A stretch of DNA of 41,108 bases from a virus. Position 1 is the first letter of the stretch; the number at the start of each line of letters is the position of its first letter. Where the stretch lies: the IMG/VR virus record IMGVR_UViG_3300002144_000640, positions 1 to 41,108 of that record; one strand, given 5' to 3'. The notes under the pieces were generated by a model. It was not told where the DNA came from and searched no databases. It saw nothing but the letters and a program-made list of their open reading frames with translations. Of the stretch, positions 24,268 through 37,369 are shown in pieces. The position numbers and the translations under genes were made by a program.

Positions 24268-24612
24268 TTACCAAGCTCTACAAGACCAATATCTTGCTTT
24301 GTCTTTTGGCCCTGGATTGTCACAATTATGACGGGCTCTAAATGATTTACGGTTCGAAGGAATATGCTTTTTAATAGTCATATTCTTATCGCCAAAGTTT
24401 ACCTTTTGGGCTTTACCATCACCATCAGGATCAACATATACTTTAGACTTTGCTACGTCGCCAGCAGATGGTTTATTTAAAGTTACTTTCTTACCTTGAT
24501 AAGTTGCTTCGGTTTGGCCTGGTGTCATTTTCTTAGCATGAGCCGTGGCTGAGGGTAGACCCCAATCCAACTTGTGGCTCATCTCTTCTGTATATGCTTT
24601 AAATGATTTCAT
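24268..24612 (-). CDS. capsid-tag-bearing phage protein, DUF6321-like (114 aa)
   Basis: It begins MKSFKAYTEEM, resembling the T4 capsid-targeting sequence (CTS) of internal head proteins (MKTYQEFIAEA). The rest includes VYVDPDGDGKAQKVNFGDK, then SFRARHNCDNPGPKDKARYW with WSCR at the end. This C-terminal Cys/His/Arg block is conserved in many marine phages. The two cysteines and His suggest a small metal site. It is likely a packaged or late head protein. The family name is from recall. Its start overlaps the end of the next small tagged gene by 4 nt. Confidence 0.7.
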   Translation of the reverse strand: MKSFKAYTEEMSHKLDWGLPSATAHAKKMTPGQTEATYQGKKVTLNKPSAGDVAKSKVYVDPDGDGKAQKVNFGDKNMTIKKHIPSNRKSFRARHNCDNPGPKDKARYWSCRAW

Positions 24613-24824
24613 TTGGACATGTCCGCCAAGTACTCCATGGCATCTTTCTTTTTCTTGAATGTTCTTCTATCTGCACTAGTTTTGCCAGTAACTTCCCATT
24701 CAACGTGATCACCAGAGCGCCCAGCAGGATTAGAAACTTTCTTAATCCCCGGCGTTGTGGGGGTAGATTTAGTAATATACTTATCAAATCTACCTTCAAC
24801 GGTATATGCCTTAAATGATTTCAT
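24609..24824 (-). CDS. small capsid-tag-bearing basic protein (71 aa)
   Basis: It begins MKSFKAYTVEGRFDK; the first eight residues are identical to those of the adjacent 114-aa protein. The body is basic and short, ending SADRRTFKKKKDAMEYLADM. Start set at 24824, which overlaps the stop of the 456-aa gene by 1 nt. It would be a small internal head protein if the tag is a true capsid-targeting signal. No other domain is visible. Confidence 0.65.
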   Translation of the reverse strand: MKSFKAYTVEGRFDKYITKSTPTTPGIKKVSNPAGRSGDHVEWEVTGKTSADRRTFKKKKDAMEYLADMSK

Positions 24825-26203: not shown

Positions 26204-27202
26204 TTAGCCTTTGGTTGTTTTATTAATTGTTTTTGTGTCACTCAAACGAGCTCTATCAAGCATACGGTCATGGCGTTTTGCATCGCTCTGTTTTTCTTGG
26301 TCAATTCTTTTTTTGGCCAAATCAGCAGCAGATGTTGCTTCATCAGTTTTTGTGTTCAACATATTCTTTAAGGTCACAATGGGTGAAATCTTTTTAACTG
26401 CTTCTAACCACATTCTTTTAGATTGACCATCCTGGTCTATTATAACATAATTCGAACCAAGATGTTTAACTATACCAACTTTATTTGATTCAATAATCTT
26501 TACCTGGTCGCCGACACTATATAGATTACCCTGAACATATTTCTCTCTGGTCTCAGAAACCTTCTTGAGTTTAATATGATTATTAAAGTTCGTTGTCTCT
26601 GTAAGACCCATGCCAGATCTAACGGCATTAAATATACCCTTAGCATCTTGGTTATTCATACCCTTAGGTAAACCTTGGGCAAAACCGGTGAAGTCATTAG
26701 ACTTGGCAAATTGTCTTTGCTTGGTAGCAGAAGCGCCACTTACGGCATCACCATCTGGGTCTCTATCACCAGCAGAAATAACACTAATGCGAGCAAAGTT
26801 AAAAAACACACCACGTGTTTTCTGACCATTATACTTGTTGAGCAATGTATCAAATTCGGTAACTCTATCAGAGCCTACAACCATGACTATGTTTTTAAAG
26901 CCTTCGTTATATAAGGCACCCGCGGCGTCTAAGAATGTTTTTACTTTTGGATTCATCATCACAGACCTTGCGTGACGAGGAAACATCTTACGAACAAATT
27001 TTATTTTGTCTTTATACGAAAGAGGGTTTTTATTTTTGTCTTGAGACTGAGATAGGAAAACACGATAAGGATTATTGCTAGCTCGAGTCGCGAGGGAATT
27101 AAGGAGTTTCTCATGGCCAATGGTAGGTGGATTCATTCTACCAAAGGTAAAATAAACCGTTTTTTCTTCTTCAACTAAATATGTCTTAAATGAATTAATC
27201 AT
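26204..27202 (-). CDS. capsid-tagged nucleotidylyltransferase (cytidylyltransferase-like)
   Basis: The 332-aa protein begins with a tag, MINSFKTYLVEEE, then a nucleotidylyltransferase domain. FTFGRMNPPTIGHEKLL carries the HxGH-type motif (T27-x-G-H30). VVGSDRVTEFDTLL follows, and SGASATKQR (~155-163) matches the second ATP-binding signature. Residues ~215-265 look like a KOW-type SH3 (LYSVGDQVKIIESNKVGIVK). The reaction would be NTP plus a phosphorylated partner giving a nucleotidyl product plus PPi; the substrate is unknown. The start at 27202 is chosen because the tag begins there and overlaps the upstream stop by 8 nt. The LVE after the tag fits a T4 gp21 cleavage site. Confidence 0.85.
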   Translation of the reverse strand: MINSFKTYLVEEEKTVYFTFGRMNPPTIGHEKLLNSLATRASNNPYRVFLSQSQDKNKNPLSYKDKIKFVRKMFPRHARSVMMNPKVKTFLDAAGALYNEGFKNIVMVVGSDRVTEFDTLLNKYNGQKTRGVFFNFARISVISAGDRDPDGDAVSGASATKQRQFAKSNDFTGFAQGLPKGMNNQDAKGIFNAVRSGMGLTETTNFNNHIKLKKVSETREKYVQGNLYSVGDQVKIIESNKVGIVKHLGSNYVIIDQDGQSKRMWLEAVKKISPIVTLKNMLNTKTDEATSAADLAKKRIDQEKQSDAKRHDRMLDRARLSDTKTINKTTKG

Positions 27203-27857
27203 TACTTGATGCTCGGCGCTTTCGTTCAACTTCATTCTTACGGACTTGTGGAAACAATTTCCGTGCAATCATTTTAATGCGCTGCTTAATTGCAGGTTTT
27301 TCTAAGCGTTTCTCAATTTCAGCTCTACGCTGATACGTCAAATCGCCCTTTGGAATATCTTTAGTAAGCTTCTTAAAGATTGCCATGCGTGCTTGCCTAG
27401 TAGCCCTTTTCTCTAATTTATCTTTAGAGGCCATGCGGCGCTTGGCTCTTTCTCTACCAAGCGAAATCTTTGCTTTGTATTTAACCATCTGTCGCTTACG
27501 TTGCAAGCGCTGTGGTACTGTAAGAGCCTCATCAACATCAGTCTCTTCTTTAAGACCGTCAAGATGTTTGTTGAGAGCAATAGTTAGTTTAGAATGTTTT
27601 TTGCCGTCAACATGAACTTCACGCTTACCAGTATTGTTAAACTCAACGCCTATATTATGCATTGCTGGACTGCCGTGTGCTTTATGGATAGCATCGTAAA
27701 TAGAGTCTTCTCCGCGCTTAAATCTTTGTGGAACATGCACAGTAGTTTTTTCGGAGACAGCTTCGCCGATGCGACGCCTCTTTTGGGCTCTATACTTAAT
27801 GATATCTGGTTCGCCTGGACGATAGTCGGCGATAACAAAATGTTTAAAATCTAGCAT
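27195..27857 (-). CDS. highly basic internal/DNA-associated phage protein (220 aa)
   Basis: It starts MLDFKHFVIADYRPGEPDI; the opening resembles a degenerate capsid tag. The middle has two VPQR-led segments (TVHVPQRFKRGEDS, ALTVPQRLQRKRQ). The C-terminal ~110 residues are extremely rich in Arg and Lys (LGRERAKRRMASKDKLEKRA) and match a pattern I know from T4-like marine phages. A protein that binds packaged DNA inside the head is the natural reading. A GAGGA ribosome site precedes the ATG, and a TATAAATG late-like box lies 22 nt upstream. Confidence 0.65.
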   Translation of the reverse strand: MLDFKHFVIADYRPGEPDIIKYRAQKRRRIGEAVSEKTTVHVPQRFKRGEDSIYDAIHKAHGSPAMHNIGVEFNNTGKREVHVDGKKHSKLTIALNKHLDGLKEETDVDEALTVPQRLQRKRQMVKYKAKISLGRERAKRRMASKDKLEKRATRQARMAIFKKLTKDIPKGDLTYQRRAEIEKRLEKPAIKQRIKMIARKLFPQVRKNEVERKRRASSND

Positions 27858-27878
27858 TGGTTCCTCGTTGGTTTATTC

Positions 27879-27886
27879 CATTTATA
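27879..27886 (-). promoter_or_regulatory. candidate late promoter box (TATAAATG)
   Basis: One base from the T4 late octamer TATAAATA, in a 34-nt intergenic gap upstream of a virion-type gene, followed by a GAGGA ribosome site. Weak as a single match. Confidence 0.35.
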
Positions 27887-27891
27887 ATATA

Positions 27892-29118
27892 TCATCTAGT
27901 AGGGCTATCCCAGCCCTTTAGAATATCCGGTGAGAAGTTGGCGTATGAAAATTCCATACGGTCAACGATCTTCACTGCATCACCACCAAGTGTATCTATA
28001 GCAACAAAACCTTCTTGACCGGTTACTTTAAAACCATTCTTGGTCTTAAGAAAAGTTTGCGTTGAAGATAGTTTGCTTAATATATTTATAAGTTTTAGTT
28101 TTGCAAGAACAATAACTTTCTGTAAATCAAACATTAATTTTAAGTTTTTCTTGTTTGATACCGAAAAAAACTTAAGCACTTCTTTAAGCTTTAAAGCCTG
28201 TGATTGCTTACCCTTTTCGCTCTTGGCCTTATCAATCTCTTTTTGGTATTTATTCTGTATATAAGCAATGAGATTATTCACATGCTTATTGGTATCCATA
28301 ATAACAGTACCAGAGCGAACAAATGTGTTGTTAAATGTCTCAATCATTTGTGCTAGTTTTTGATCCTGCTCAAGTTGCTTTAGTGTTGTACTTGCAATGG
28401 AGTTGAATATTTTACCGGCATCACTCAAGTGTGTATTCACTTCTTGAGTATCTGCTTTTGACATTGTATATTTGGTCATGTCTTTGAGCATAGCATCTTG
28501 TGACCAGACCTTAGTTGATTTTTTAAACTTTGTGACATCAACACCATATGATGCCTTAAGTGTTTCAAAGCTATTACCAGTATATGTTGTATGCCAAACA
28601 ACACCAATTTCTGCTGCTTTTACTGCTTTGGCCGCATCGGTATTTGCAGGTACTGCATAGACAAGTGTATTTGGATGAAACGTCACATAGGATTTGCCAT
28701 TAATCTTTTCTGTATTTACATCTGCTTTAGAGAAAAGAAAATCACCTTGAATGATACCTTTGATACCAAGAGCAGGTAGATGTTTCAGCGCAGCTTTAAG
28801 CTTCTCGGCCAAGTCACCACTCGTATCAGCATCAACATCTGCTGGAGTTTTATATACCTTGGGATTCTTATTAAAGATACCTTTCTTGGCTACAAAGAAC
28901 TTGCCATCACTTGGATCAGTGCCAACAAATATTGCTGGTGCACCATCCCATTTTATAGAGACCTTGCCTGCATGAGTTCCTGCAAGCATATCTCTAAGTG
29001 AACGAAGCGCAATGATTGCTTCACGAGTACCCTTGACACCACCATAAAGGACTTTGTCCTCTATATGGGGCATATGAGTATTCTTTTGTTCGGTAATAAA
29101 GGAACTAAAATTTTGCAT
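27892..29118 (-). CDS. capsid-tagged ligase-fold nucleotidyltransferase (408 aa)
   Basis: It begins MQNFSSFITEQKN, a capsid-like tag ending I-T-E. After it, SIKWDGAPAIFVG holds K56-W-D58-G59, motif I of ATP-dependent DNA/RNA ligases and capping enzymes. KFFVAKKGIF is next, GIIQGDFLF (121-129) looks like motif III, QEGFVAID (~368-375) is motif IV (EGxV), and VKIV (382-385) is like motif V. The middle ~200 residues are a lysine-rich helical insert. The fold implies covalent AMP-lysine chemistry at K56. Possible roles are sealing or end-processing of injected DNA, or AMP-transfer to RNA or protein. I recall a phage DUF6267 family of this kind, but that name is unchecked. Confidence 0.7.
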   Translation of the reverse strand: MQNFSSFITEQKNTHMPHIEDKVLYGGVKGTREAIIALRSLRDMLAGTHAGKVSIKWDGAPAIFVGTDPSDGKFFVAKKGIFNKNPKVYKTPADVDADTSGDLAEKLKAALKHLPALGIKGIIQGDFLFSKADVNTEKINGKSYVTFHPNTLVYAVPANTDAAKAVKAAEIGVVWHTTYTGNSFETLKASYGVDVTKFKKSTKVWSQDAMLKDMTKYTMSKADTQEVNTHLSDAGKIFNSIASTTLKQLEQDQKLAQMIETFNNTFVRSGTVIMDTNKHVNNLIAYIQNKYQKEIDKAKSEKGKQSQALKLKEVLKFFSVSNKKNLKLMFDLQKVIVLAKLKLINILSKLSSTQTFLKTKNGFKVTGQEGFVAIDTLGGDAVKIVDRMEFSYANFSPDILKGWDSPTR

Positions 29119-29143
29119 ATTATCTTACTTCAATCCAACCGAG

Positions 29144-30124
29144 TTAAATTTTTTCAGCTGTATTACCAGCTTTTGCTCGAGGAAATACACCCACTCGGGC
29201 TCTAGGTAAAAACTCACCAGCCACATTAGCACCACGGTCAGTAGTAAATCGTGCATAGTAAATAGCTTCGTATCCGTTACCATCTAACTTATCACCATTT
29301 TTACCTTGATGGTTCGAATTTATAGCATATACATTATTCTTTTTTACCAACTTCATAAGGCCTTGATGGAATTCATCGACGTTATCTCGACCACGTTTAC
29401 CACCAATTTTCCAATCTACTCCCCAAACTGATTGTTGGATAATGGTGTTATCTAATACTGGCCTATATACTGCTTGGCCCCTGTCTAAGCCTTTAGGAAA
29501 TTTTGCAATTGTAGACTTCATGAAATTTTTTACTTCTTTATTGTTTTTAAACACAGCAGCACTTAGGCCACCGTATTGCTGAAAATCAGTTGGCTTTGAA
29601 CCAGCTTTGTGTGATAGCCACGCAACTTCTTCTCCTTTAGGGCCTAACAAATGAAAGTCTGATTTTGGGGTGCCAGGTGTACTTTCGATTCCTGATACCA
29701 TCACTAATCTTCCGCCTACTCTCACTTTAATTGCAGGCTGATTTTCTTTTTTCAACGTTTCTTCAAGTTCTTTTCTGAATTTACTAAGAAATGCATCTTC
29801 TGCTGCAGTACCAAAACCGACTCCTTTGCCGCCAAACTCAGGTGTCTTAAAAAAATCTTTAGGATAGCTGACTTTAATTGCAGAGTTTTTATCGTTCTTT
29901 GCCTTTAGCTCTGCGCTATAACCGTTCTGTGGCATCTGAGCTTCAATCTCGTTATACTGCGACTTATCAATCTTTACCAAACCCTTTGTTGTCAAAAAGG
30001 TCTCACCGTCCTTTATTTTATCTAGAAAAGCCTGTACGCGGAATCCGCCACGCTTTGTGAGATCGTTATGCTTTAACGGCGCATACATGTTTTTTTCCTG
30101 TAAAAAAGAGATAAATGTTTTCAT
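29144..30124 (-). CDS. capsid-tagged possible PD-(D/E)XK nuclease (326 aa)
   Basis: It starts MKTFISFLQEKNMYAP, the closest match in the window to the T4 tag MKTYQEFIAEA, with L-Q-E as a candidate protease site. Around residues 105-175 a restriction-fold pattern can be traced: E109 in GTAAEDAFLSKF, D156 in PKSDFHLLG, then EEVAWLSHKAG with S171-H-K173 in the (D/E/S)xK position, followed by FQQYGG. The GGKGVGFGTAAED loop and C-terminal basic strands are also visible. The nuclease call is tentative. Preceded by a perfect late promoter box. If packaged, it would enter the cell with the DNA. Confidence 0.55.
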   Translation of the reverse strand: MKTFISFLQEKNMYAPLKHNDLTKRGGFRVQAFLDKIKDGETFLTTKGLVKIDKSQYNEIEAQMPQNGYSAELKAKNDKNSAIKVSYPKDFFKTPEFGGKGVGFGTAAEDAFLSKFRKELEETLKKENQPAIKVRVGGRLVMVSGIESTPGTPKSDFHLLGPKGEEVAWLSHKAGSKPTDFQQYGGLSAAVFKNNKEVKNFMKSTIAKFPKGLDRGQAVYRPVLDNTIIQQSVWGVDWKIGGKRGRDNVDEFHQGLMKLVKKNNVYAINSNHQGKNGDKLDGNGYEAIYYARFTTDRGANVAGEFLPRARVGVFPRAKAGNTAEKI

Positions 30125-32266: not shown

Positions 32267-33028
32267 ATGAAAAAAATCTCGACTGAATATAAGTTAAAAA
32301 CCATTATAGTAATAACACACGTATTATTTTTAGCCGGTTTAATTTTTGTTAACCAAATTTCGTATTGGTATTTACTAGTTACATTATTTTCGCTTGGCCT
32401 TATTGGCAAACTCGGCGGTGAAATTGGATTTCATAGGTATTTTGCGCATAAATCATTTAAGACAGAATATTGGAAATCCAGGATGTTGCTCATACTTGGT
32501 AGCTTAAATTTATTTGGTAGCACGTTATCATGGGCGGGTACGCACAGAGTTCATCATAGATTTACCGACGATGATAACGATCCGCATAGTCCGCACACGC
32601 AAAATCCCTTTAAAGTGTGGATACTATGGTGGAAACCATTTCAAATTAGCAACCGATACGTCTCCGATATGATTAAAGACCCGTGGCAGTTGTTTATACA
32701 CAAGTGGTATTTTGAACTTGCTTTGACCTTAATTTTTGTATTAGGGCTTGTAAACTTTAAACTGCTTATGTTCGGTTTACTATTACCTTCTATTATACAA
32801 TTTCACGCAAGTTCGTTACTTGTTGATATTGTGTGTCATAAGTGGGGATACCGAAACTTTAACACATCAGACCATAGTAAAAATAATACATTTGTGAATA
32901 TGTTTACTGGCGGCAGTGGTTTACACAACAATCACCATGCCAATCCTGGTGACTATTATTTTGTGCAAAAACCCGGTGAATGGGATTTATGGGGTTTGTT
33001 TATAAAGCGTTTTTTATTAATAAAATAA
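32267..33028 (+). CDS. membrane fatty-acid desaturase 1 (acyl-CoA delta-9 type)
   Basis: The 253-aa protein shows all three histidine boxes of the stearoyl-CoA desaturase family: H56-R-Y-F-A-H61, H93-R-V-H-H97 and H220-N-N-H-H224, plus a GYRNFNTSDHS segment. Two hydrophobic pairs precede and separate the boxes (e.g. TIIVITHVLFLAGLIFV and LALTLIFVLGLVNF), as expected of a four-pass membrane enzyme with cytosolic boxes. It inserts a double bond into acyl chains using O2 and electrons from a redox partner. The Rieske protein encoded nearby is an oxygenase, not an obvious partner. First of three desaturase genes. Confidence 0.93.
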   Translation: MKKISTEYKLKTIIVITHVLFLAGLIFVNQISYWYLLVTLFSLGLIGKLGGEIGFHRYFAHKSFKTEYWKSRMLLILGSLNLFGSTLSWAGTHRVHHRFTDDDNDPHSPHTQNPFKVWILWWKPFQISNRYVSDMIKDPWQLFIHKWYFELALTLIFVLGLVNFKLLMFGLLLPSIIQFHASSLLVDIVCHKWGYRNFNTSDHSKNNTFVNMFTGGSGLHNNHHANPGDYYFVQKPGEWDLWGLFIKRFLLIK

Positions 33029-33686: not shown

Positions 33687-34109
33687 ATGATTTTATTAAC
33701 AACAACATATGAACTGCACGAAGGTAGCCGCGCCGGTCTTTCTTTAGATGGCGATCCAGCCGCGCGTGCTGCAAGAATGATAGAAATTGTATATGTCAAT
33801 AATGAAAACCTTCTCGCGCAGCGCGAAAAATTAAACAAATCGACTAGATACCACAGAGTGATTAATGTTGACGGATGGTTTGTTAGCCATCACGAACTTT
33901 TTGTAAATCAAGATGACTACGATGAATATATGCTTTTAGCTAAATCTATTGCAGCTGAAAACGATGCACTAAGAACGGTTGACGCATTACCTATGAATCA
34001 AACGACTGAACTTGTTTTACAAGCTAAGTGGACAAAACTATTAGAGAATGATGTAACGTTTGACCGAATTTTTGGCTTGTCTAGTGAAGACTTGGCTAAC
34101 GCAGATTAA
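33687..34109 (+). CDS. hypothetical protein (140 aa)
   Basis: It starts MILLTTTYELHEGSRAGLSL and is acidic and mostly helical, with a segment INVDGWFVSHHELFVNQDDY containing paired histidines. There is no membrane segment and no recognised motif. An AAAGGATTTTT ribosome region and two late boxes precede it. It sits between the GNAT-like gene and the second desaturase; its 3' end shares bases with an in-frame upstream extension of the desaturase ORF, which I reject. Function unknown. Confidence 0.55.
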   Translation: MILLTTTYELHEGSRAGLSLDGDPAARAARMIEIVYVNNENLLAQREKLNKSTRYHRVINVDGWFVSHHELFVNQDDYDEYMLLAKSIAAENDALRTVDALPMNQTTELVLQAKWTKLLENDVTFDRIFGLSSEDLANAD

Positions 34110-34119
34110 TAATTTCGCT

Positions 34120-34908
34120 ATGACTAAATATTTTTATTCTAACGTTAAGGGCATTGTTATAACTCAAATACTATTTGCCGTGTTAAGCGCGGTAGGTTTG
34201 TATATAGCATTTGATGCTAATTGGTTAATTTTAAGCTTACTAGTCTATTTTGTGTCTGGATGCTTGGGGATTACCGTAACATATCATAGATATCTAACGC
34301 ACAAGAGTTTTAAAATGCCTCAATGGTGTATTTATTTATTTAGCTTTTTTGGAGCAATGGGTGGAACCGGATCTACCTTAGGCTGGTTATCAGTGCATAG
34401 AACGCATCATAAATACAGCGATAAAGATGGTGATCCGCATAGTCCTCACAACGCTGGTTGGAAAATTATATTTGGAAAATATAACTATAATTTTAATCCA
34501 ATGGATGCAAAAAGTGTATTGCGGGATAAATTTCACGTTACCCTACATAGGTATTACTACCTAATATTTGTTATATGGGGTTTGGCTCTATTTGCAATCG
34601 ACCCATACCTAGGTCTTTACGGTTTTATAATCCCAGTCACCTTACAAACTTGGATTAGCAATGTGACAAATTGGGCTAACCACTCGACTGGTTATACAAA
34701 TTTTAATACGAGTGATAATAGCAAAAACACTTGGTGGATTTCTGCTTTAAATTGGGGTGATGGTTGGCACAATAATCACCACGCCAGGCCAGGAAGTTAT
34801 ACTTTTCAACATAAATGGTGGGAAATCGATATTAGCGCATACGCTATACGTTTAATTTGCCTGTTGTCTGGCACCACCAATACCATAAAAACATTTAATC
34901 AAAAATAA
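34120..34908 (+). CDS. membrane fatty-acid desaturase 2
   Basis: The 262-aa protein starts MTKYFYSNVKGIVITQILFA. Histidine boxes: HRYLTHKSF, HRTHH in LSVHRTHHKYSD, and HNNHH in WHNNHHARPGSY. A WANHSTGYTNFNTSDNSKN segment carries the additional Asn/His ligand region. Hydrophobic pairs flank the first two boxes. The KYSDKDGDPHSPHN stretch after box 2 is typical of delta-9 enzymes. Start chosen at 34120 because it gives the family-like N-terminus; no strong ribosome site is present. It differs widely from desaturases 1 and 3, so position or substrate preference may differ. Confidence 0.93.
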   Translation: MTKYFYSNVKGIVITQILFAVLSAVGLYIAFDANWLILSLLVYFVSGCLGITVTYHRYLTHKSFKMPQWCIYLFSFFGAMGGTGSTLGWLSVHRTHHKYSDKDGDPHSPHNAGWKIIFGKYNYNFNPMDAKSVLRDKFHVTLHRYYYLIFVIWGLALFAIDPYLGLYGFIIPVTLQTWISNVTNWANHSTGYTNFNTSDNSKNTWWISALNWGDGWHNNHHARPGSYTFQHKWWEIDISAYAIRLICLLSGTTNTIKTFNQK

Positions 34909-35671: not shown

Positions 35672-36578
35672 GATTTACTGATAATCGTTTTACTGCTTTG
35701 TGATAGTTTTCATAATACACACCACGATATTGATTTTGCCATTCTATCTGTTCTATAAGAGCCTGGCATTGGATTAATGGCGTCTGAATTACAAACTCCA
35801 TCCCTGCTGCTTTTTTACGACCCTTTGTAAAATCATATCCTTCCATATTAAAATCAGATCCATTATTAAACACATAAGATTTACTTGAGTTGGTACCTAG
35901 TTTACCTGGATATTTCTTATTAGCCAAGTCTTGTATGCGAGGATCTAATAGGAACGATAACATCATCTCAGGGGTGTAACTCAAAAGAAACGGGCAGCCT
36001 TCTAACTTGTTTATTCTAAAGTAGTTTAGAATTGAGTGAATAACTTCTAATTCTTCAAGAACCCATTCATCTTTATCTTTTAGATATTTTAGATACGGTG
36101 GATCGTTGCCCATGGTCGCAAAGCCATCACACCAGCTAGCAACCTTCATGGTGCTTGTTAGCCACCAGCTACCGCAATTAAATGATTTAGCTAAATTAAA
36201 TGCGTCACCGCTTTCTATAAAATTATCTAGGTTTAAGCAATATTCAATTGGTTTAACACCAATTGACCTGCAATGATCAAACGCATACTGTGTCTCGTGT
36301 ATATTATAATCTTGATCGCTGTATTTACCTTGAAGTCTGATGATAACCGGCTTAAATTTAAATCCTAACCGATGATAGACATTAAACACATATTGACTAT
36401 CCAAGCCGCCGCTGTAGAGTAGATACAGTTCACCCGCCTTATTCTCATACATGTATTTTGCCGTTTCCACGGTTTCCTCATAGTATGATTTGACTTTACG
36501 CTTGGGTGGATCTATTTCAACATGCCAAGTATCTCCGTGGCCAGTGCCTCGTAAATAATTATCTTTTAGTAATTGCAT
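35664..36578 (-). CDS. PP-loop ATPase (adenine nucleotide alpha-hydrolase superfamily)
   Basis: The 304-aa protein has the pyrophosphatase P-loop SGGLDS in LYLLYSGGLDSQYVFNVYHR (about residues 55-60). This marks the superfamily that adenylates a substrate for amide, thiolation or related chemistry (QueC, asparagine synthase C-domain, tRNA modification enzymes). A Rossmann-like strand FKPVIIRLQGKY follows. Trp/Cys-rich SFNCGSWWLTSTMKV, and KYPGKLGTNSSKSYVFN near the end, give no exact match. It overlaps the Rieske gene by 13 nt, so the two are co-translated and probably act on one substrate. That substrate is not deducible. Confidence 0.75.
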   Translation of the reverse strand: MQLLKDNYLRGTGHGDTWHVEIDPPKRKVKSYYEETVETAKYMYENKAGELYLLYSGGLDSQYVFNVYHRLGFKFKPVIIRLQGKYSDQDYNIHETQYAFDHCRSIGVKPIEYCLNLDNFIESGDAFNLAKSFNCGSWWLTSTMKVASWCDGFATMGNDPPYLKYLKDKDEWVLEELEVIHSILNYFRINKLEGCPFLLSYTPEMMLSFLLDPRIQDLANKKYPGKLGTNSSKSYVFNNGSDFNMEGYDFTKGRKKAAGMEFVIQTPLIQCQALIEQIEWQNQYRGVYYENYHKAVKRLSVNQK

Positions 36579-37369
36579 CCCGTCATAATCCTATATTCAA
36601 CCTGGCTTTTTTCCAAGTTTTCAATCGGTGCACGTTGCACCATCAACTCTGCTTGGCGCTTATCCTGTCCCCAAGCGCATTCCCATATATCAGAGTTTAC
36701 ATTGTATATATCATCTGATTTTTCGGAATCTTTATATTTAAACACGTACACATTAGTATTGCCATTTACTGTCTCACCAGCAACGGTAATGAATAATGAA
36801 CCATTTTGATACTCGATCATTGTATCCGGATAGACTGTGACCCAAGCCGCTTTGATAACACTATTTGACAAGACAACCTGTACGCTACCCCAGTCGTAAT
36901 AATACCAATCAATATTATTAATATCATCCTCAGTAATACCGATTTTATTATACACACCAGGATGGACATGTTCAATGTGTTCAACATCCAGGAATAATTC
37001 TAATATACTTTCGCGTGATGCCTTTACTGTATCAATCCTTGATTCACAAAGCACATAGTTATCAAACGATAAATCATTAAGACAATCATCGGATATTGGT
37101 GTTGTAAACTGTAGGCCACGCCATTCATATAATGGTTTTGTTTCTAACGAATGGAAAGTGTTTATACCAACACCTTTGTGATTAAAGGTTTTACCGTGAT
37201 AAGGACAGGTTCTATTTGATGTATTACCGTTGCATGTGCTAATTAGACTGCCTTGGTGTGGACAGATATTAGATACTAGAATGCCATCATACGCAACCCA
37301 ATGGTTGTTTTTTTGATTTACTATCCTGTACTGATTATCTTTTAAACTATTCTTGTGTGATATATACAT
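36566..37369 (-). CDS. Rieske non-heme iron oxygenase (267 aa)
   Basis: It has the Rieske [2Fe-2S] site in two parts, C36-P-H38 (NICPHQGS) and C55-P-Y-H58 (RTCPYHGK). The catalytic mononuclear iron motif D128-x2-H131-x4-H136 lies in FLDVEHIEHVHPG. It therefore looks like a complete oxygenase alpha subunit, though shorter than bacterial ring-hydroxylating enzymes (~420-450 aa). The chain uses O2 and an electron donor to hydroxylate or demethylate a substrate; no reductase is seen nearby. It overlaps the PP-loop gene. Its start is only 3 nt from the divergent GNAT-like start. Confidence 0.88.
   Translation of the reverse strand: MYISHKNSLKDNQYRIVNQKNNHWVAYDGILVSNICPHQGSLISTCNGNTSNRTCPYHGKTFNHKGVGINTFHSLETKPLYEWRGLQFTTPISDDCLNDLSFDNYVLCESRIDTVKASRESILELFLDVEHIEHVHPGVYNKIGITEDDINNIDWYYYDWGSVQVVLSNSVIKAAWVTVYPDTMIEYQNGSLFITVAGETVNGNTNVYVFKYKDSEKSDDIYNVNSDIWECAWGQDKRQAELMVQRAPIENLEKSQVEYRIMTGCNY

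Follow-up and report, generated by a model that had tools for sequence, protein, structure and literature searches.

Proteins of various kinds are loaded into the heads of T4-like bacteriophages by a capsid targeting sequence (CTS), a system that has become textbook matter (PMC9026906). Genetic analysis of T4 has assigned targeting to residues 4 and 7 of this N-terminal tag and processing to residues 8 and 10, and both EcoRI and staphylococcal nuclease have been loaded into T4 through it (PMC9026906). Here, we describe a group of minus-strand genes at positions 26204-30124 of a 41,108-base virus record (IMG/VR record IMGVR_UViG_3300002144_000640, referred to in its entirety as the window) that resembles the T4 system of internal proteins (IPs) IPI-III in several respects: a ten-residue N-terminal tag in which positions 4 and 7 are aromatic, position 8 is isoleucine or leucine and position 10 is glutamate, a gp21-type protease (present in near-complete relatives), and cargo proteins that are otherwise unrelated to one another. 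The T4 IPs are small and basic, and the one whose role is known acts as an inhibitor, whereas the candidate cargo of the window has predicted enzyme folds with intact motif residues.

Other described systems resemble individual parts of this locus. An NMNAT-like transferase (T4-GC190) has been reported from cyanophage virions since 2010 (PMC3037559). The versions present in purified virions of S-SM1, S-SZBM1, S-SCSM1 and S-CREM2 are orthologues of the window transferase, but the available portions of the source papers do not mention a targeting tag, and a ligase-fold neighbour, unlike the transferase, is not identifiable in these virion proteomes. Chlorovirus virions contain restriction enzymes that are believed to set off the breakdown of host DNA within 5 minutes (PMC7019647). 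The predicted fold of one window protein, P0003, matches R.CviJI and Nt.CviQII, but P0003 comes from a bacterial phage, is predicted to be loaded by a CTS, and has no methyltransferase among its scanned neighbours. A second protein, P0002, shares an adenylyltransferase-domain fold and the KxDG, EGxV and KxV motifs with T4 RNA ligases 1 and 2, TbREL1 and the Naegleria RNA ligase; it differs from them in having QGD for the usual motif III, a large helical insert and no extra C-terminal domain, and in being expected in the virion and not solely in the cell. Finally, phage polyvalent proteins and MuF- or Alt-type effectors (PMC9503650) are likewise enzymatic effectors borne in the head and injected, whereas the window cargo would consist of separate small proteins with a cleavable tag rather than head-protein fusions. 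We present evidence that the tagged enzyme-type proteins of the window are probably head cargo that is injected with the phage DNA.

Results

Three enzyme-type proteins carry a T4-type targeting tag

The window belongs to a T4-like marine phage whose nearest counterpart in the phage collection is Phage C48C1; Methylophilales, Pelagibacter and cyanobacterial T4-like phages are remoter relatives. A cluster of nine genes on the minus strand extends from 30124 to 22973 and probably represents the capsid-cargo genes of this phage. The tagged enzyme-type proteins are encoded as follows.

29144..30124, minus strand: P0003, tagged nuclease-fold protein of 326 residues (phrog_13937, E=5e-53; invariant residues, AlphaFold, BFVD)
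30095..30124, minus strand: tag MKTFISFLQE, P0003 residues 1-10 (sequence; T4 IP tag MKTYQEFIAE, positions 4, 7, 8, 10)
27892..29118, minus strand: P0002, tagged ligase-fold protein of 408 residues, Pfam DUF6267 (E=2.4e-100; motifs; AlphaFold)
29089..29118, minus strand: tag MQNFSSFITE, P0002 residues 1-10 (sequence; predicted local distance difference test score, pLDDT, <50 at residues 1-11)
26204..27202, minus strand: tagged nucleotidylyltransferase of 332 residues (PF01467 above cut-off; phrog_3041, E=4e-64; NPPTIGH, SGASATKQR)
27170..27202, minus strand: tag MINSFKTYLVE, transferase residues 1-11 (sequence; tag also on transferases of published virion proteomes)

The N-termini of all three proteins match the T4 tag, with which both IPII and IPIII start (MKTYQEFIAE), at positions 4, 7, 8 and 10; the aromatic residues lie at positions 4 and 7 in MKTFISFLQE and MQNFSSFITE and are shifted by one residue in MINSFKTYLVE. 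A strict form of the tag pattern occurs on 5 of the 61 window genes, all within this cluster, and 5000 shuffles yielded a mean of 0.09 matches and a maximum of 2. The presence of the tag in this cluster is not due to chance. Across relatives, 155 distinct tag cores share the order F/Y, then F/Y/H, then an x-E end, and 145 of them have isoleucine or leucine at position 8, where the pattern allowed eight residues; the glutamate at position 10 was required by the pattern. Among distinct homologues the strict tag is present on 107 of 183 DUF6267 proteins, 77 of 139 transferases and 33 of 83 members of the nuclease family, and on 54 of 1039 other nearby open reading frames (ORFs), many of which resemble further cargo. 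A gp21-type prohead protease was found in all six near-complete relatives; it has no match in the window, which is a 41-kb fragment.

Tagged proteins in published virion proteomes

The published virion list of cyanophage S-CREM2 comprises 52 proteins. All four strictly tagged S-CREM2 proteins (the S-adenosylmethionine (SAM) hydrolase, the kinase, gp136 and the transferase) appear in it, compared with 47 of the 156 untagged proteins (p=0.0095). With a looser tag pattern the association is weaker (p=0.07), because three undetected proteins match as well. Two further virion proteins, gp13 and a Cas9-like protein, are tagged as judged by eye; the tag of the latter, gp12, is displaced to residues 18-26. 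In the S-CREM2 genome (OR473000; locus L098, 3837-13331), the SAM hydrolase gp6, gp13, the kinase gp14 and the Cas9-like gp12 bear tags in a run, which may be the reason these enzymes show up in the virion proteome.

Four transferases could be identified in published virion proteomes, those of S-CREM2, S-SZBM1, S-SCSM1 and S-SM1, and each of them bears the tag. DUF6267 serves as a natural control, since its cyanophage versions are untagged and undetected: neither S-SZBM1_141 nor S-CREM2 gp87 was found in the respective virion proteome. The start of the untagged S-SZBM1_141, MAKNTH, is almost identical to QKNTH, the expected remainder of the tagged DUF6267 form after cleavage. Because of the S-CREM2 association, the tagged virion transferases and the undetected untagged DUF6267 proteins, we regard the tag as a very probable marker of head cargo. 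Packaging is well supported, if indirectly, by the T4 tag positions, the protease of relatives, and the tagged transferase orthologues in virions; for P0002 and P0003 of the window phage we infer packaging and ejection.

Enzyme motifs are conserved in all three proteins, and two are modelled with enzyme folds

The initial annotation had pointed to TIGH and SGASATKQR in the transferase, to KWDG, EGFV and VKIV in P0002, and to a D...SHK core in P0003. Each of these motifs was found in the respective minus-strand gene product. They are not due to chance, as their catalytic-motif residues are invariant in 66, 74 and 44 homologues, respectively. Structure prediction and fold search returned enzyme folds for P0002 and P0003 (pLDDT 89.7 and 91.8), and with the motif residues conserved the three enzyme assignments are upheld.

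P0002 matches the Pfam profile DUF6267 (PF19782) with 337 bits against a gathering score of 27 (E=2.4e-100). Its motifs are K56-WDG (I), QGD at 124-126 (III), EGFV at 369-372 (IV) and VKIV at 382-385 (V, extending to VKIVDR, 382-387), within which K56/D58/G59, Q124/G125/D126, E369/G370/V372 and K383/R387 are invariant in the 74 homologues (31-94% identity). In the AlphaFold model, which has a helical insert at approximately 220-350, K56 closes strand 52-56, E370 starts strand 370-374, and K383 lies within strand 381-385. Alignment of the model by VIA gave Z scores of 8.2 for TbREL1 and the Naegleria ligase, 8.0 for T4 Rnl2 and 7.8 for T4 Rnl1; rows 1-15 and 17 of the VIA results are all RNA ligases (Z 7.6-8.2, 166-194 residues aligned). 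The chain ends about 25 residues past motif V, and P0002 therefore lacks the oligonucleotide-binding (OB) fold domain that follows this motif in ATP-dependent DNA ligases and capping enzymes. Together, the model and motifs assign to P0002 a predicted single-domain RNA-ligase-like adenylyltransferase fold of the covalent nucleotidyltransferase superfamily. Neither P0002 nor P0003 had a relevant match when solved structures were searched by profile. The original S-PM2 record (NC_006820, p141/p142; locus L008, 7974-9768) splits DUF6267 and joins its second half to the transferase; in record LN828717 the DUF6267 match is single and unbroken.

P0003 is modelled as an N-terminal barrel domain (~12-97) followed by a restriction-endonuclease domain (~103-315), and E109, D156, S171/H172/K173 and Q182/Q183 are invariant in its 44 homologues. 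VIA aligned the model with MspI (Z 7.4) and HinP1I (Z 6.1), and a search of BFVD returned R.CviJI (P52283; E=4.5e-18, 23% identity, TM 0.51, 248 columns) and the nicking enzyme Nt.CviQII (E=6e-12). The homologue of P0003 in S-CAM7 had been named CviJI independently in GenBank. The predicted structure supports a restriction-endonuclease fold of the CviJI/MspI type. The barrel domain is Hfq/Tudor/SAWADEE-like by VIA (Z ~3) and also occurs on 31 proteins, mostly of 430-500 residues, that have another C-terminal domain (phrog_1462 type). These long upstream proteins were rejected as nucleases, since the N-terminal barrel is the only part they have in common with P0003.

The ATG at 27202 gives a transferase of 332 residues; a longer listed ORF from 27268 begins at an upstream TTG. 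The Pfam profile CTP_transf_like (PF01467) scores above its cut-off on this protein and matches 8/8 homologues (best E=1.3e-8), and G-R-N-P-P-x-x-G-H and S-x4-R are invariant in the 66 homologues, so that profile and residues confirm its assignment as a CTP_transf_like nucleotidylyltransferase. By profile it is nearest to nicotinamide mononucleotide (NMN) and nicotinic acid mononucleotide (NaMN) adenylyltransferases, yet below the curated cut-offs: homologues reach 1.3e-5 at best with TIGR00482 and 3e-4 with TIGR01526, and the window protein scores 13-14 bits on curated NMNAT models with cut-offs of 127-181. The NMNAT label was rejected for this reason. Searched by profile against solved structures, the transferase gave only a weak match to MjNMNAT (1f9a, E=0.22).

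A conserved gene pair beside a variable slot

The DUF6267 family is present on at least 599 related contigs. Of 147 loci, 141 have the transferase gene downstream of DUF6267 (median gap, 423 bp), and fusions of the two occur in three loci. Across 215 loci, the position immediately upstream of DUF6267 is occupied by ~16 or more unrelated families, of which the P0003 group is the largest; several others are tagged, and most are families of unknown function. This position seems to be an exchangeable slot for cargo next to a fixed pair of enzymes, reminiscent of the variable IP genes of T-even phages. Among tagged neighbours, a protein of 516 residues (locus L016, 4440-5987) has a weak AAA/kinesin-like ATPase match and one of 202 residues (locus L124, 3126-3731) a weak HAD-phosphatase match. 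In relatives the cluster adjoins replication genes (gp41 helicase, nrdA).

The window cluster also encodes the following proteins.

27195..27857, minus strand: P0004, basic protein of 220 residues between the DUF6267 and transferase genes (imperfect tag MLDFKHFVIAD)
24609..24824, minus strand: small tagged protein, start MKSFKAYTVE (tag; no family match in profile searches)
24268..24612, minus strand: small tagged protein, start MKSFKAYTEE (phrog_7595; tag)

The tag of P0004 retains the aromatic residues and lacks the cleavage glutamate, and DLP_6 and four other loci encode the transferase fused to a P0004-type basic domain. The Pfam Csy4 profile matches P0004 barely above its cut-off (E=1.6e-5); a Csy4 identity was set aside because the match lies mostly within a Lys/Arg-rich stretch and is probably, though not provably, compositional. 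Melnitz has a homologue of the phrog_7595 protein in fusion with the transferase (locus L004, 9628-11577). Elsewhere, the window carries auxiliary metabolic genes for serine hydroxymethyltransferase (3-1040), a fatty acid desaturase (34060-34908) and a Rieske protein (36566-37369), and the product of 32267-33028 appears desaturase-like by eye.

Discussion

If the tagged enzyme-type proteins are head cargo, the tag would bring each of them into the prohead core, a gp21-type protease would cut after the glutamate of (I/L)-x-E and thus remove the tag, and the mature enzyme would be sealed in the head with the DNA and ejected together with it. By analogy with the chlorovirus enzymes, there is about an even chance that P0003, with its CviJI/MspI fold, would at time zero cut DNA of the host or of competitors. 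More tentatively, the single-domain RNA-ligase-like P0002 might self-adenylate on K56 and join or adenylate RNA or DNA ends, for example to reverse cuts made by defence systems. It is similarly conjectural that the transferase would make an adenylylated or cytidylylated nucleotide, one of the nicotinamide adenine dinucleotide (NAD) type being the favoured guess. Repair of defence-made breaks and restoration of nucleotides or NAD-type compounds are plausible candidate functions for the pair. The initial annotation also suggested circularisation of injected DNA, capping, inactivation of host defence or modification of an NAD-like metabolite as conceivable roles of the cargo.

Several observations weigh against this interpretation. 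The proteome data come from relatives of the window phage. For S-SZBM1, tagging failed to predict detection: only one of three tagged proteins was found in the 30-protein virion proteome (p=0.46); the small tagged proteins S-SZBM1_191 and S-SZBM1_192 (OL473597, 122311-123125; MKSFKSFLSE and MKTFKQYITE) are absent from the mass spectrometry list. The genes for these two proteins adjoin a virion structural gene. The authors of the S-CREM2 and S-SCSM1 proteomes allow for co-purification or carry-over. The strict tag is found on only ~40-58% of homologues. Foldseek found no match below 0.001 in the PDB for the model of either P0002 or P0003, and VIA Z scores of 7-8 are close to the level reached by unrelated folds; because the Z values alone would be weak, the fold assignments stand on motifs and fold jointly. 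In P0003, with E109, D156 and K173 invariant, Ser171 occupies the site of the usual Asp/Glu of PD-(D/E)XK. No 4-bp palindrome, nor RGCY, is depleted in the window DNA, and a cognate site therefore cannot be named. A C5 methyltransferase, the one type searched for, is present in one of seven full-length P0003 genomes, on which ground it was rejected as a general companion of P0003, and no companion methyltransferase occurs among the scanned neighbours. Neither site avoidance nor, in general, a C5 methyltransferase therefore explains how phage DNA would escape P0003.

The alternative that survives best, with a likelihood only somewhat short of even, is that DUF6267 and the transferase act as one unit, modifying a nucleotide or a nucleic-acid end in two steps, and that the neighbouring nuclease-fold protein, exchangeable and unrelated, is only a passenger. 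The retention and occasional fusion of the pair, next to a slot with so many unrelated occupants, agree with this view, but in cyanophages only the transferase is tagged, so that the two proteins need not travel together. It is unlikely that the proteins are repair or takeover enzymes acting after infection, with an N-terminal motif unrelated to packaging and a virion transferase that represents carry-over of an abundant protein. The neighbouring gp41 helicase and nrdA genes of relatives, the carry-over allowed for by the proteome authors and the two undetected S-SZBM1 proteins would fit such an origin; however, the motif matches the residues defined genetically in T4, the strict motif of S-CREM2 is on detected proteins only, mutually unrelated enzymes among them, and the tagged transferase recurs in four independent proteomes. 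Equally improbable are internal proteins of the T4 IPI kind that mainly bind DNA or inhibit and have kept enzyme folds after loss of catalysis, with P0003 blocking host nucleases rather than cutting: the T4 internal protein of known role is an inhibitor (PMC3012670), and Ser171 and the lack of site avoidance would accord with this, but the invariance of E109, D156 and K173 in 44 diverse homologues and the intact ligase and transferase motifs suggest selection for catalysis.

The preferred reading, that of injected head cargo, builds in part on what is already known, namely the targeting tag mechanism, the presence of the transferase in virions, and DUF6267 as an uncharacterised family. The initial annotation had called a cargo system of this kind largely undescribed, which is too strong in view of the textbook status of the targeting sequence (PMC9026906) and the virion transferase reported since 2010 (PMC3037559). 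Apparently new are the recognition of the tag on enzymes of marine phages, cargo with ligase and CviJI folds, the association of tag and virion in S-CREM2, and the variable slot. In the open-access full-text literature, 'capsid targeting' together with 'cyanophage' retrieved one T4 review and 'DUF6267' nothing, an absence that is not proof of novelty. Whether these elements make up a modular injected arsenal is evenly balanced in our estimation: a fixed pair of ligase and nucleotidylyltransferase and, ahead of it, an exchangeable slot for restriction-type nucleases and many unrelated proteins would share the T4-type cleavable tag as their address, the cyanophage SAM hydrolase, kinase and Cas9-like protein would use the same address, and cargo could be read from genomes by means of the tag.

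If injection of tagged enzymes is correct, sequence alone would suffice to list the proteins injected by T4-like phages of the ocean ahead of any phage gene expression, and DUF6267, a common family of unknown function, would acquire a testable activity. The T4 internal-protein system would then comprise, besides inhibitors, enzymes whose active-site residues are defined, and phages would gain a parallel to the restriction enzymes of chlorovirus virions. The tag would also offer a possible explanation for the enzymes that have repeatedly been found in cyanophage virions without a packaging route.

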